Below, in pieces: positions 33 through 4,730 of a stretch of DNA of 64,000 bases. The position numbers were made by a program, and so were the translations under genes. The stretch covers positions 1-64,000 of the forward strand of contig NZ_ANNU01000044.1 in the NCBI RefSeq assembly GCF_000346615.1, written 5' to 3'. The stretch comes from Nafulsella turpanensis ZLM-10 (GTDB taxonomy: Bacteria > Bacteroidota > Bacteroidia > Cytophagales > Cyclobacteriaceae). The stretch's first letter is position 1. Each line of letters opens with the position of its first letter. The notes beneath the pieces were generated by a model, which searched no databases, was not told the origin of the DNA, and saw nothing but the letters and a program-made list of their open reading frames with translations.

Positions 33-67
33 GAGGGCAGTTCTCGCACAGACTGCCGTTGCCAGCA
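33..67 (+). repeat. right half of an attC-like site (S0), cut by the window edge region
   Basis: The small inverted repeat GGCAGT...ACTGCC directly precedes GTTGCCAGC, the start of the first complete cassette. The site belongs to a cassette to the left whose body is not in the window. Its arms differ in sequence from those of the later sites. Confidence 0.4.
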
Positions 68-80
68 ATAAAATTGCACT

Positions 81-590
81 ATGAAACATCATTACTTATT
101 TATGTTCTTATTTTTCTGTATTTCTTGTGCAGAAAATAAATCAGCCGAGACCGAAGATAAGACGCAAAAGCTACAAGCAGTGACAACTGGATTTGACCCC
201 GCAAAATCCCCAGAATATAAAAGAGTATTTATAGGGACTCCATACCAGCAAAACAAAGACACCTTCTTAATTGGGGAAACACTAAGAGCAAGGGTGAGTT
301 TTGACGAAAAAGTAGAGGTGCTTAAAGCTGTAGCCAAAGACGCAAACCTTGACTTCAACATTGATTACAATGCGGACGCCATAAATCAGGACAAGAGCTT
401 ATTGGTTATGCCATCCGAGGACAATGAATATGCAGATGTCAAATTTAAAGTGGCAGTCAAGGATTCATCCATTCAATATCAACAGATGGAATGGAGATTT
501 GCTATTACGTTTAAGTTCATTGAAAAGGATGTAGCAATCTATGACACAACATTCAGTAGAAGCGTACCCTATGTGGTTAAAATAAAATAA
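81..590 (+). CDS. hypothetical lipoprotein, cassette 1
   Basis: This 169-residue protein starts with a short positively charged then hydrophobic segment and a lipobox-like CISCAEN at residues 13-19. It is therefore probably a lipoprotein anchored at Cys16. The rest is a soluble, beta-rich looking domain with no family I recognise. It fills a single cassette: the cassette start GTTGCCAGCA lies 23 bp upstream of the ATG and the matching complement follows the stop within 20 bp. The gene has the AT-rich composition of the other cassettes. Its function is unknown. A periplasm-facing location is inferred from the lipobox only. Confidence 0.7.
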   Translation: MKHHYLFMFLFFCISCAENKSAETEDKTQKLQAVTTGFDPAKSPEYKRVFIGTPYQQNKDTFLIGETLRARVSFDEKVEVLKAVAKDANLDFNIDYNADAINQDKSLLVMPSEDNEYADVKFKVAVKDSSIQYQQMEWRFAITFKFIEKDVAIYDTTFSRSVPYVVKIK

Positions 591-597
591 GTAATAC

Positions 598-734
598 TGC
601 TGGCAACCATGCAAACAGGTTATTGGGCATTTACTTCCAAATTCAGGCTTCACAGCCATTTATATACTACAAGGAACCCGGAAACTGATGTTCTCTAAAA
701 TGCCCAACACCCAGTTTGCGGACCGTTGGCGTGC
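598..734 (+). repeat. attC-like site S1 between cassettes 1 and 2
   Basis: The outer left arm TGCTGGCAAC pairs with the start of cassette 1, not with the right edge of this site. Inner arms GCAAACAGGTTATTGGGCA (from 611) and TGCCCAACACCCAGTTTGC (from 701) are near-perfect inverted repeats. The centre carries CACAGCCATTTAT, which recurs in three other sites. The right edge GGACC is followed by GTTGGCGTGC, the start of cassette 2. Confidence 0.75.
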
Positions 735-743
735 ATTAACCCC

Positions 744-1394
744 ATGACTCAATTGACTCCAGATATAAAAGAAAGGTTCTTTAAGACAATCTATGGAGAG
801 ATTTCTATTGGGGACTTTGAGGAATGGCTCTATCAGTCAAATGAGCTAGAACAGCTATTAGGGGCGGACGACCATTTTGAGCTTATCTCTTATAACTTCA
901 AACAACCAGGTGCTATTTATGGACTAATTAAGCTTCTATATAAACACCTAGACCGTGCAGAGTATGAAGTGTGGAGATTACATAAACTACTTGGGCAAGT
1001 AGAGTATAAAGAGGGGGATTATCCTGCCGCAATAACGGAATTCTACGACCTCTACAGCAAAGGGTATACCTTCTTCGATAATTTAGCTTTCGGATACTCG
1101 CTATTCCTAGAGTGTCCAAATCAATATGGAGTTGATACCTTCGAAGAGCTTACCCTAGAACAACAAATGAACTTGGCTAATAGCTGCTATCCTCAGATTT
1201 TAGAAGAGACCAAACGAGTAAAGGAATGGTTAAAGTCTGATAAAATCATTCCGACTGGGACTCAAGATAAAGATTATGGTCACTTCAAATTTATTGACAA
1301 TCGGACTGAAGAGGAGAAAGAACCAACCACCTTTAAAAGGGAGGAACCTTCTCAAAATCAGCTTAGGAAGAAGTGGTGGCAGTTTTGGAAGTAA
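744..1394 (+). CDS. hypothetical TPR-like protein, cassette 2
   Basis: The protein is 216 residues from the ATG at 744. A TTG at 726 is also in frame, but it lies inside the recombination site core, so the ATG is preferred. The middle part, roughly residues 70-130, contains helix pairs such as LHKLLGQVEYKEGDYPAAI that resemble one tetratricopeptide repeat. The C-terminus ends in a charged tail closing with KKWWQFWK, an aromatic tip seen on many small Bacteroidota proteins. There is no signal peptide, so it is probably cytoplasmic. It is the only gene of its cassette, and the complement of the cassette start follows the stop codon at 1407. Its function is unknown. Confidence 0.65.
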   Translation: MTQLTPDIKERFFKTIYGEISIGDFEEWLYQSNELEQLLGADDHFELISYNFKQPGAIYGLIKLLYKHLDRAEYEVWRLHKLLGQVEYKEGDYPAAITEFYDLYSKGYTFFDNLAFGYSLFLECPNQYGVDTFEELTLEQQMNLANSCYPQILEETKRVKEWLKSDKIIPTGTQDKDYGHFKFIDNRTEEEKEPTTFKREEPSQNQLRKKWWQFWK

Positions 1395-1406
1395 AATAAA
1401 TTAAAC

Positions 1407-1475
1407 GCACGCCAACAATTAAGCTACAATGAGCCGAAGTAAGGCTTCGGTTCATTACTAGCGCAGGTTGAACTC
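1407..1475 (+). repeat. short attC-like site S2a between cassette 2 and the int-transposase module
   Basis: GCACGCCAAC is the exact reverse complement of the cassette 2 start. It is followed by a strong hairpin in which AATGAGCCGAAG pairs with CTTCGGTTCATT, extended by AGCTA/TAGC, with the loop at about 1441-1445. The site ends at GCAG followed by GTTGAACTC. At about 65 bp it is half the length of the other sites and shares no arm sequence with them. The hairpin could also be read as a terminator of the upstream gene, but it has no T-tract. Confidence 0.55.
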
Positions 1476-1720
1476 TTAGCTCCGGTAGCGGGGCATCTAT
1501 GGGGATTGAATAGTTTTCTTTTTGGGGAAGGGGCTTTAGCTGGCAGTGAAAGCGAATGAAGCCGTCATTTTCTGAAGGATGTGCTGCAGGATTTTCCTTC
1601 TTTTTCTGCTGATTTGCTGCTTTAGGAGTGCCTTTAGCAGAGATAAGGCAATAGGATTCCATGGCTTCTTTTGAAGCTTTTTTATTTTCGCCCCTGATGT
1701 AATTGTCTTCTGCATGGCCT

Positions 1721-2836
1721 TCACTGCGGCGGCCCCCTTTCCGGCTCAATGACTCTGATGATGATACGGCCCTGCTCCTGGCAGCAGGGGCATTTCTCAG
1801 GGTCATAATGCAGCTTTTCTTTAGCAATTTGCATCCAGGAGTATTTAATCTTTCTCCATGCAGGCTGCAAAAGAGCCTTTTTGGCAATATTGAGCTCTAC
1901 AGGTTTATTCCTGGAGGCAAGGATACCATAGTGGCGGATTCTGACAAAGCCTGCAGGGAGAACATGTGAAGAGAACCTTCTGAGGAACTCTGTGCCACTA
2001 AGGCTGCTCTGCTTTTTTACACCCTCCTGCCTGTAGTCTTTGTAGGAGAAGCAGACCTTTTCCCTGTCAACATGCAGGAGTCGGTGATTGGAAATGGCTA
2101 CTTTATGGGTATACCTGCCCAGGTACTCCACTACTGTTTTGGCAGAGCCGAAGGGTCTTTTGGCATAGACTACCCATCTGGTGCTGAAAGCCTGCTTTGC
2201 AATATGCTGTGGCACCTCTACCTCCTTCCTAAGGGCAGCCATGAACCTGGCACGGAATACGGCACTTAAGGCTTTCTTGGGGAAAAGGTATTTGTCTTTG
2301 TAGCGGGCATTCTTCCACTTACCCGAAGGTGTAATGCCTCCCCCGGGTACAATACAATGCAGGTGTGGGTGCAGCCATAGCTGCTGTCCCCAGGTGTGGA
2401 GGATAGCCACCATGCCTGTTTTGGCTCCCAGGTACTTGTGGTCGGCAGCAAAGCAGCGGATGGTTTGCCAGCAGGCAGCAAAGAGGGCGTTGTATACTTC
2501 TTTGTCATATTGAGGCAGCAGCTCATTGAAAGCATGTGGCAAAGTAAAGACAATATGGTAGTAAGGAACCGGCAGAAGCTCATTCTCCCGGTCCAGTATC
2601 CATCTTTCTTTGTTGGTCTGTTGGCAGCGGGGACAATGCCTATTGCGGCAGGAATTGTAGCTGATGCTTTCCACGCCACAATTCCTGCAGGCAGCAATAT
2701 GCCCGCCAAGAGCTTTGGTCCGGCACAGGCTTAATGCCCTGAGGGTTTTTCTTACCTGCAGGGGTGGATTATACTGCTGCTCAAAGACTTGTCCATGAAA
2801 ACGGATGATATCAGCTACTTCATGTGCCGGCTTCAG
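1721..2836 (-). CDS. IS91-family transposase (HUH/Y2 type, zinc-binding N-terminus)
   Basis: This single-strand DNA transposase nicks and rejoins DNA at the element ends by rolling-circle-like transposition. The frame is open from 2857. It has no ATG, GTG or TTG before a GTG at 2674, and that GTG would remove half of the zinc-binding domain. I place the start at a CTG at 2836-2834, whose last two bases overlap the TGA stop of the upstream recombinase (CTGA). This gives 371 residues, a normal family length. Zinc ligands are visible at about C38, C50, C53, C63, C68 and C71. The HUH motif is HPHLH near residues 156-160, and the two tyrosines lie in YLGRYT near 238-242. The start codon is inference; the family call is firm. 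Confidence 0.85.
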   Translation of the reverse strand: MKPAHEVADIIRFHGQVFEQQYNPPLQVRKTLRALSLCRTKALGGHIAACRNCGVESISYNSCRNRHCPRCQQTNKERWILDRENELLPVPYYHIVFTLPHAFNELLPQYDKEVYNALFAACWQTIRCFAADHKYLGAKTGMVAILHTWGQQLWLHPHLHCIVPGGGITPSGKWKNARYKDKYLFPKKALSAVFRARFMAALRKEVEVPQHIAKQAFSTRWVVYAKRPFGSAKTVVEYLGRYTHKVAISNHRLLHVDREKVCFSYKDYRQEGVKKQSSLSGTEFLRRFSSHVLPAGFVRIRHYGILASRNKPVELNIAKKALLQPAWRKIKYSWMQIAKEKLHYDPEKCPCCQEQGRIIIRVIEPERGPPQ

Positions 2837-3768
2837 GACCTGGCCGGATAAAGCCTGTCAAAGGGGCTATGAGCCAGCTTCCGCTCTATCTTTGCCACAT
2901 GCAGGTACATCATGGTGGTTTGGATATGGGAATGGCCCAGCTGCTCTTTGATGGTGACGATATCCACGCCCTGTTCCAGAAGATGCGTGGCAAAAGAGTG
3001 GCGCAGGGTATGTACACAGGCATCTTTGAGGATGCCTGCCTTCGCAAGGGCCAGGCGGAAGCTTTGCTGCACGGCACTGCGGCCCAGAGGAGTGCCTTTA
3101 TCTTTGCCGTTAAAAAGATAGACTTTAGGCTTTGAGCCTTTGATATACTGCTGCAGTCCTTTAGAGATGTAATCACTCAGCACCACATACCTGCTCTTAT
3201 TGTTTTTGGACTGGCGAATATGAATCTGCTTACGGTCAAAGTCAATGTCGCTGATGAGGAGATTACAGACTTCACTGATACGCAGACCCGCCGAATAGAT
3301 AAGACTCAGCAGTACCCGCTGCTTGAGCCGCTGAGGTGCTTTAAAGAGCCTTCTGAGCTCTTCCTGTGAAAGGACCAGGGGCAGTTTGCGCTGGCTCTTG
3401 ATGTTAGGCAGGTGAATGAGTCTGTCTTCCTTTTCATAGATGCGGTAGAGGAAGCGCATGCCATAGACAGCATGCTTGAAATAGGTGTCACTCAGGTCTT
3501 TGTTCTGCTTGAGGGAAAACAGGTAGGAATTAATCTCTTCTGTGTCCAAATCAAGGGGAGATTTACCAAAGTAAAGGCTGATTTGGGCAATGGAGCGGGA
3601 GTAGTTGAAGACAGTGCTTTCAGAATAGCTTTTGAGGGTAATCTGCTCTTCGAACTTAGCCATGTGGACTGAAAATCCCGGAACTTCCTTTTTGGCTCTT
3701 TCCAGTAAAGTTTTCGCTGAGTTGGGACGGGTATTTAGCCATCCGTAATTTTTACTTATCTTGCTCAT
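2833..3768 (-). CDS. tyrosine recombinase, IntI/Xer-like, partner of the IS91 transposase
   Basis: The 311-residue site-specific recombinase has an N-terminal SAM-like core-binding domain (about residues 30-115) and a catalytic domain (about 130-305). The catalytic residues are visible: Arg163 in GLRIS, His253 and Arg256 in HTLRHSFATHL, His279 in LGHS, and Tyr288 in MMYLHV. The tail HVAKIERKLAHSPFDRL resembles the C-terminus of integron integrases. The extra helix segment that defines true IntI, a KYP...W.W.FP block before the HxxR motif, is absent. I chose the ATG at 3768 over a TTG at 3792. It overlaps the transposase frame, so the two are probably translated together. Whether it also acts on the neighbouring palindromes is an open question. 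Confidence 0.85.
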   Translation of the reverse strand: MSKISKNYGWLNTRPNSAKTLLERAKKEVPGFSVHMAKFEEQITLKSYSESTVFNYSRSIAQISLYFGKSPLDLDTEEINSYLFSLKQNKDLSDTYFKHAVYGMRFLYRIYEKEDRLIHLPNIKSQRKLPLVLSQEELRRLFKAPQRLKQRVLLSLIYSAGLRISEVCNLLISDIDFDRKQIHIRQSKNNKSRYVVLSDYISKGLQQYIKGSKPKVYLFNGKDKGTPLGRSAVQQSFRLALAKAGILKDACVHTLRHSFATHLLEQGVDIVTIKEQLGHSHIQTTMMYLHVAKIERKLAHSPFDRLYPARS

Positions 3769-3827
3769 ATCGATTATGTTTTTTTTGAGCAAGATACCTC
3801 CGGGTGGCTCTTTAGCTACCGGAGGTT

Positions 3828-3967
3828 GAGTTCAACCCAACAAACAGGTTATTGGGCATTAACTTGTAAATTCAGGCCTCACAGCCATTTATAAACTAAA
3901 CAGCAGGCGGATAATGACTCGCTCTTATCTGCCCAACACCCAGTTTGCGAACCGGTTGTGGCGTATG
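3828..3967 (+). repeat. attC-like site S2b after the int-transposase module
   Basis: GAGTTCAAC is followed by CCAACAAACAGG and TTATTGGGCATT. The far arm GCCCAACACCCAGTTTGCG is followed by AACCG and GTTGTGGCGT, the start of cassette 3. The central CACAGCCATTTAT is conserved with S1, S3 and S4. The left edge is the complement of the int-transposase module start at 1467. Confidence 0.7.
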
Positions 3968-4040
3968 CAAAAAAGGGTGAAGTCGGCACAAATAGGATTG
4001 AAAATTCGTTATATTAGACATGAGGAAAAAGGATGATATA

Positions 4041-4268
4041 ATGACAAGAGAAAAATTAATAGAAAAGACGATAGATAGGCTCTCAAAGCTTCCTGACCAA
4101 AAATTGAAAGAAGTGTCAGATTTTGCAGAATTCCTCTTAAGCAAGATTGAGGATAGAAATTTGACTGAAGGAATTCAGCAGTTAGCAGCGGATTCTAAAT
4201 CTTTCAAATTCCTAGAGGACGAGGAAGACCTATATTCTGCATCGGACTTGAAAGAGAGCTACAAATGA
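4041..4268 (+). CDS. DUF2281/VapB-like antitoxin, cassette 3
   Basis: This is a small acidic protein of about 75 residues from the ATG at 4041; an in-frame ATG at 4020 would add seven residues. The start MTREKLIEKTIDRLSKLP followed by KEVSDFAEFLLSK matches the DUF2281 type of short antitoxin. The C-terminal part, with LEDEEDLYSASDLKESYK, is likely the toxin-wrapping tail. Its TGA stop overlaps the ATG of the MazF-like gene (ATGA), so the two are translationally coupled, as is usual for toxin-antitoxin pairs. It would neutralise the toxin and repress the operon. A family assignment weaker than DUF2281 is possible, but the antitoxin role follows from context. Confidence 0.7.
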   Translation: MTREKLIEKTIDRLSKLPDQKLKEVSDFAEFLLSKIEDRNLTEGIQQLAADSKSFKFLEDEEDLYSASDLKESYK

Positions 4269-4585
4269 AAAAGGGAGACATTGTTCTAATTCCTTTTCCT
4301 TTTACAGATTTAACAGGGGCTAAAAATAGACCTGCCTTAATATTAATTGATTCTGATGAGGACATTACAGTTTCATTCATTACAACCCAACTAAAGTGGC
4401 AGGAAAAGTTTGACGTAAGACTGGAACCATCTAAAGAAAATGGACTCAAAAAGACTTCACTGATTCGGTTGGCGAAAATTACGACTATAGATAAAGAGCT
4501 GGTGATTGGAAAGCTGGGGCAATTAACGGACCCAGAAATGGAAGATGTCAACCGTGGATTAATTGCCCTTCTCGGCCTAAAATAA
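4265..4585 (+). CDS. MazF/PemK-family endoribonuclease toxin, cassette 3
   Basis: This is a 106-residue type II toxin of the MazF/PemK fold, expected to cleave mRNA. It opens with KGDIVLIPFPFTDLTGAKNRPALIL, the typical first strands with the conserved GxxRPALIL block. It ends with IGKLGQLTDPEMEDVNRGL, matching the family's final helix. It overlaps the antitoxin stop by four bases. The cassette end GCCACAAC follows within 20 bp, so the pair fills the whole cassette. Length and motifs look intact, so it is probably active when not bound by antitoxin. Confidence 0.85.
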   Translation: MKKGDIVLIPFPFTDLTGAKNRPALILIDSDEDITVSFITTQLKWQEKFDVRLEPSKENGLKKTSLIRLAKITTIDKELVIGKLGQLTDPEMEDVNRGLIALLGLK

Positions 4586-4589
4586 ATAA

Positions 4590-4730
4590 CACACGCCACA
4601 ACCCAACAAACAGGTTATTGGGCATTCCCTGGTAATGCTGGCTCCACAGCCATTTATTAGCTAAACAGCAGGCGGATATTACTTTGCCATTAAATGCCCA
4701 ACACCTAGTTTGCAAACCGTGGGTGTTAAT
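4590..4730 (+). repeat. attC-like site S3 between cassettes 3 and 4
   Basis: CACACGCCACAAC complements the start of cassette 3 at 3955. It continues with CCAACAAACAGG and TTATTGGGCATT, the conserved centre CCACAGCCATTTAT, and the far arm AATGCCCAACACCTAG. TTTGCAAACC then leads into GTGGGTGTTAAT, the start of cassette 4. This is the cleanest example of the site family. Confidence 0.75.

Follow-up and report, generated by a model that had tools for sequence, protein, structure and literature searches.

An IS91-type transposase and tyrosine recombinase module with attC-like ends of its own in cassette arrays of Bacteroidota

The window, by which we mean the whole stretch of 64,000 nucleotides of Nafulsella turpanensis ZLM-10 DNA that was analysed, carries genes for a tyrosine recombinase and an IS91-type transposase between inverted ends, inside an array of gene cassettes. 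IS91 elements are generally understood to have no terminal inverted repeats and to insert next to GAAC/CAAG-type tetranucleotides. The locus raises the question of whether these ends belong to the element or to its site, and whether the module uses attC-like DNA as a target or is itself carried as a cassette, the two options offered by the original prediction. In the window, a 141-nt repeat (family D1) recurs at 605, 3834, 4599, and 5316, and the cassettes each have their own 10-nt complementary arm pair, starting with GTT and ending with AAC, which is the arm arrangement of integron cassettes. All resident features lie on the plus strand: a cassette at 58..607 (ORF 81-590; arms GTTGCCAGCA/TGCTGGCAAC), a cassette at 725..1416 whose R'' box was hit and whose ORF is in sense, with the module antisense to it, and a cassette at 3955..4602 encoding a PemK/MazF-like toxin and a small DUF2281-like partner. 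The segment at 3837..3954 is the remainder of the interrupted resident attC, of the 141-nt repeat family, separated from its cassette by the module.

The module itself is a cassette-like unit of 2420 nt at 1416..3835 on the minus strand, with ends set by comparison to relatives present in several copies and by the N|TT rule described below; in minus-strand reading it starts with TTGAACTC at 3835 and ends with ...CTTAATTG at 1416. Both genes lie on the minus strand, with the recombinase preceding the transposase. The recombinase (2833..3771, 312 aa) has an intact catalytic R...HxxR...H...Y set and matched Phage_integrase (PF00589) at 2e-42 in a profile search; it scored 213 bits for NF040815 (cut-off 220) and 182 bits for TIGR02249 (cut-off 265). 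In an alignment with IntI1 the IntI patch was absent, and with TIGR02249 below its cut-off the protein did not qualify as an IntI. The HUH transposase (1721..2839) contains the HPHLH and YLGRY motifs and matched Y2_Tnp at 1e-57, transpos_IS91 at 384 bits, and PF04986, PF14319, and NF033538; the module thus meets the IS91 criterion of an HUH Y2 transposase with a zinc domain. At 2837-2839, the transposase has an in-frame CTG, overlapping the recombinase stop, where its relatives have ATG.

On the recombinase side, the module has an R'-type end, (G)TTGAACTCAACCTCCGGTAGC (3813..3836, minus strand), with 30 nt identical in locus L041, and on the transposase side an R'' arm, GCTACCGGAGCTAAGAGTTCAAC (1467..1490, minus strand), which pairs with the opposite end upon circularisation. 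The R'' box GAGTTCAAC at 1475-1467 is followed on the minus strand by a hairpin and by the last base, G, at 1416. This hairpin, CTGCGCTAGTAATGAACCGAAG CCTTA CTTCGGCTCATTGTAGCTTAATT (1417..1466, minus strand), was assigned as the L''/loop/L' part of the module's own attC-like site by the circle-junction fold and covariation. The inverted ends GTTGAACTC...GAGTTCAAC were present, and the wider match covered 20 of 23 bases, the left end GGTTGAACTCTTAGCTCCGGTAGC from 1466 matching the right end, read inward, GGTTGAACTCAACCTCCGGTAGC from 3837 down. The 30-nt right end GTTGAACTCAACCTCCGGTAGCTAAAGAGC was unchanged in a relative from another assembly whose recombinase is 82% identical, and equivalent ends occur in more than 30 other insertions; thus, the inverted ends belong to the element and are not a chance match. 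The inverted ends of about 20 of 23 bases claimed by the original prediction were therefore real and the element's own, and the bounds it gave, 1466-3837, must be corrected to 1416-3835, the hairpin at 1417-1466 having been cut off.

Six copies in one finished genome and more than 30 insertions, mostly in Bacteroidota, have a common anatomy. Exact ends were taken from copies at different sites in five genomes (G004, G130, G480, G391, and G293). G004 is a single-contig genome from the same order; its copies, inserted at different places, have in common precisely the sequence from TTGCACTAAACC to ...GTGCAAC together with a hairpin segment of 45 nt that closes with CTTATATG, and past this shared stretch they read GTTGGC, GTTAGC, GTTATG, and so on. 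We considered and rejected the idea that the module is an array cassette using the 141-nt attC of the array, as the multiple copies of G004 show the module's own attC on the transposase side. The same anatomy was present in G130, G131, G480, G391, and G293, in many single copies, and in plasmids of Myroides, Sphingobacterium, and Chryseobacterium; a module on a Legionella plasmid (L162) has a clear attC with a longer hairpin, and no clear attC was seen in the proteobacterial relatives L163 and L164. An automatic search with fixed 14-nt arms missed the copies of the window, G480, and G391, which were picked up instead through multi-copy alignment or manually. A derivative without the recombinase gene (L080) still has both ends, and in the second module of the window's genome (contig C60) the recombinase frame is broken. 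The first 60 nt of the window's contig (C44) and of C60 (L062) are identical and stop where a cassette begins, so that the assembly is broken by arrays.

When the two module ends were joined as a circle, they formed a full attC-like site, with an R''/R' stem, an uneven spacer, and an L''/L' stem; the module therefore meets the cassette criterion of a single R''-L''-L'-R' attC made from joined ends. The complementary arms at the ends are 13-14 nt long and covary. Among 17 distinct elements, 81% of the cells were paired, and double-change cells numbered 51, compared with 17.7 in shuffles (0/500 as high) and 10-14 in slid controls. This alignment used hand-picked ends, which biases it towards pairing and not towards double changes. 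Because about 2.3 kb separates the two sides of the R stem once the element is integrated, the covariation supports the joined form. The attC type of the module was constant across hosts and unlike the attC families of the host arrays.

The junction was always N|TT, without target duplication. At the left junction, TT was preceded by G in every insertion, and the last base of the element itself was G or A depending on the lineage; because the right junction has the base of the element and the left junction that of the target, the crossover is N|TT. For the Myroides p63039 module, the two flanks put together gave 153 nt that were matched 153/153 in four plasmids, from Bacteroides xylanisolvens, B. 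thetaiotaomicron, Riemerella anatipestifer, and Empedobacter stercoris, with nothing duplicated or lost, and this perfect empty site confirmed the crossover. The module thus meets the cassette criterion of G and TT at the junction and fails the IS91 criterion of a GAAC/CAAG-type target without duplication, as there is no duplication but the target is G|TTR.

In the window, the target was the R'' box GCACGCCAAC (1407..1416, plus strand; bottom strand G|TTGGCGTGC) of the resident cassette at 725-1416, with its exact partner GTTGGCGTGC at 725. In 15/32 insertions, the exact reverse complement of the first 10 nt of the right flank was present 400-1160 nt beyond it, against a shuffled-arm rate of 0.0, and several of the remaining insertions had short flanks. 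With one mismatch allowed, a partner was found in 19 rows, which include one and the same insertion twice (L087 and L127), and the module was antisense to the cassette gene in 19/19. These results place the usual insertion point in the R'' box, between a resident cassette and its attC; in being antisense at R'', the module fails the criterion of a same-orientation cassette joined at R'. One copy in G004 (L120) lies inside a blaI-like gene whose joined flanks read through, as judged by reading the sequence, and attC is therefore preferred but not obligatory. An empty site for a G131 copy was not found in its genus. In G118 (L168, C19, around position 1500), an apparent group II intron 3' end precedes the R'' box that holds the module in G131; in this genome, Rfam placed group II domains at 2428-2731, 930 nt further on, and none at the junction.

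These observations amount to the check proposed by the original prediction, a search for the same module elsewhere: the ends are retained in the copies, which mostly lie at attC sites, at least one (L120 in G004) lies away from them, and the outcome that would have refuted the prediction, other copies with different ends or none, was not seen. Targeting of attC-like DNA held in part, as insertion into the R'' box of a resident attC, and carriage as a cassette also held in part, as the module has cassette anatomy but through its own attC and not that of the array, as had been assumed. The segment on the right side is attC of the resident array, and the module has its own. Viewing the ends against IS91 elements without inverted repeats was the wrong frame; they are attC-like and cassette-style.

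The host arrays meet the integron criterion of tandem cassettes with matching arms and attC between them. No IntI above the TIGR02249 cut-off was found in the window's own genome or in 11 relatives, and the canonical-IntI criterion is thus not met by the arrays. Instead, tyrosine recombinases mostly of 360-627 aa occur near arrays or modules; the IntI patch, seen in IntI1 itself and in five IntI-like relatives, is missing from them. One patch-less recombinase gene in G004, and one on contig C10 of the window's genome, points into the array, in the cassette direction. In the recombinase tree, module and array recombinases stood apart from Xer, and the relation among modules, array enzymes, and IntI was weakly supported. 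Contig ends of the window's genome hold three further tyrosine recombinase loci, L063 (C10:687-2090), L065 (C41), and L066 (C84), with products of about 490-585 aa; L063 has an attC-like site beside it and appears to be the integrase of the array. Assemblies of Fibrobacterota and Latescibacterota also contain patch-less recombinases (L045 and L046, about 410-420 aa), which group with the array enzymes. In another Bacteroidota genome, G090 (L188-L190, C2:156000-214000), about 55 cassettes with matching arms are chained over 58 kb (0-2 in shuffled controls); the array is superintegron-like, with short attC-like spacers and many copies of one 402-nt cassette, and its relatives have no recognised canonical IntI. 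In Bacteroidetes proper, IntegronFinder 2.0 reports no more than one complete integron (PMC9024848).

A clinical Myroides odoratimimus has a plasmid, p63039 (L166, 36000-66000), on which four modules lie among tet(X2), catB, two aadS genes, blaMYO-1, blaOXA, and a GNAT gene. The spacers that separate aadS, blaMYO-1, blaOXA, and the GNAT gene read as attC, and aadS, for example, is enclosed by the matching arms GTTGTACGAC/GTCGTACAAC; tet(X2) and catB have similar hairpins adjacent, without an arm-by-arm test. Most of these genes are in attC-type cassettes with modules interspersed; for tet(X2) and catB such an assignment would rest on hairpin likeness alone. The module suggests a route by which resistance genes such as tet(X2), aadS, and blaMYO-1 come together and spread in Bacteroidota, within arrays described as almost absent from this phylum in a standard survey (PMC9024848).

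The anatomy, ends, exact junction, target, orientation, and spread of the module are shown by sequence. The recombinase as maker of the joint, the enzyme that cuts each strand, and copy-out by the HUH protein are inferred, and no recombination was observed directly. We consider it likely that the module is an autonomous, self-mobile cassette whose recombinase joins its attC to G|TT, with the HUH protein probably supplying single-stranded copies. In this proposal, the joined ends in a circle would form an attC-like site folded from one strand, and the module's own tyrosine recombinase would recombine this folded site with a G|TT core, for which it would favour the R'' box of a resident attC, so that the module would end up antisense to the cassette genes. 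The single-stranded circular copy would most likely be provided by the HUH transposase, giving copy-out by HUH and paste-in by the recombinase. Two G131 copies in different attC targets (L087 and L128), 101 substitutions apart, both have TAA at the first catalytic HUH tyrosine, with the HUH frame open on both sides, and their recombinases differ in 35 synonymous and 3 nonsynonymous codons. Movement without an intact HUH in cis is a possibility that this pair suggests, though an HUH acting in trans, for example from an intact copy since lost, is not excluded.

Some observations count against the self-mobile cassette. Insertion beside a short fixed motif with no target duplication and the presence of subterminal hairpins are also features of HUH elements, the canonical integrase joins at bottom-strand R' and not R'', and L080 has both ends although its recombinase gene is gone. 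The main rival is an IS91-type rolling-circle transposon, in which HUH would target the folded attC at R'', the recombinase would be an accessory, for instance in circle resolution, and the attC look would come from ori and ter hairpins. The intact HUH motifs, the hairpin at the ori end, and the lack of target duplication favour this reading, as does the antisense R'' insertion, which resembles that of group IIC-attC introns (PMC7923331). However, an R'' arm 44-75 nt inside one end covaries with an end 2.3 kb away, which fits attC and plays no part in the IS91 cycle as known, the N|TT crossover lies within a GTTRRRY-type box, and HUH is broken in two multiplied copies; we regard this rival as unlikely.

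Less probable still is an ordinary cassette moved in trans by the resident array integrase, with the module genes as cargo. The arrays do own tyrosine recombinases, and such enzymes move cassettes, but the module attC is uniform across hosts and differs from the host-array families, and the module is always antisense at R'' and also occurs outside arrays (L120); this explanation seems very doubtful. That the inverted ends are coincidental or made by the site can be all but ruled out, since only the short arm length speaks for it, against dozens of independent copies, covariation, and an exact empty site. Going further than the self-mobile cassette, we propose a bolder reading, which could as easily prove wrong as right: a transposon class with an attC site as its end, which would combine HUH copy-out of a single-stranded circle with integron-type paste-in by a patch-less tyrosine recombinase, and would live on a widespread Bacteroidota integron world largely missed by standard tools, including tet(X), blaMYO, blaOXA, and aadS cassettes.

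To our knowledge, no IS91 element with attC ends has been reported, and we found no report of the combined IS91, recombinase, and attC anatomy in the open-access literature searched. A tetX-catB11-IS91-XerD cluster described in a survey (PMC11194056) has the same module beside tet(X) and catB, in Chryseobacterium and relatives, but neither the attC structure nor the junction is given in the relevant sections. With IS91-family elements that have an upstream tyrosine recombinase gene, the module shares the NF033538 HUH transposase, the recombinase-then-transposase order, and the absence of target duplication; it differs in ends that form an attC-like site with complementary arms, failing the IS91 criterion of no terminal inverted repeats, and in the N|TT crossover in a GTTRRRY-type box. 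Group IIC-attC introns likewise use the R'' box of attC, at TTGT/T and opposite to the cassette genes (PMC7923331), but are RNA-based retroelements without an attC of their own. IS1111-attC insertion sequences (a term listed in PMC11187229) also target attC, whereas they have a DEDD transposase with a guide RNA and no attC ends. Integron gene cassettes share the R''-L''-L'-R' anatomy, the G|TT junction, and the cassette-sized array unit, whereas the module has its own recombinase and transposase and enters R'' antisense, not R' in sense. Taken together, the module unites IS91-type transposons and integron cassettes, which were thought separate, in one element with its own recombinase and attC, and provides a natural system in which an enzyme producing single strands is co-encoded with a recombinase and an attC-like folded site, making the source of single strands for attC testable.
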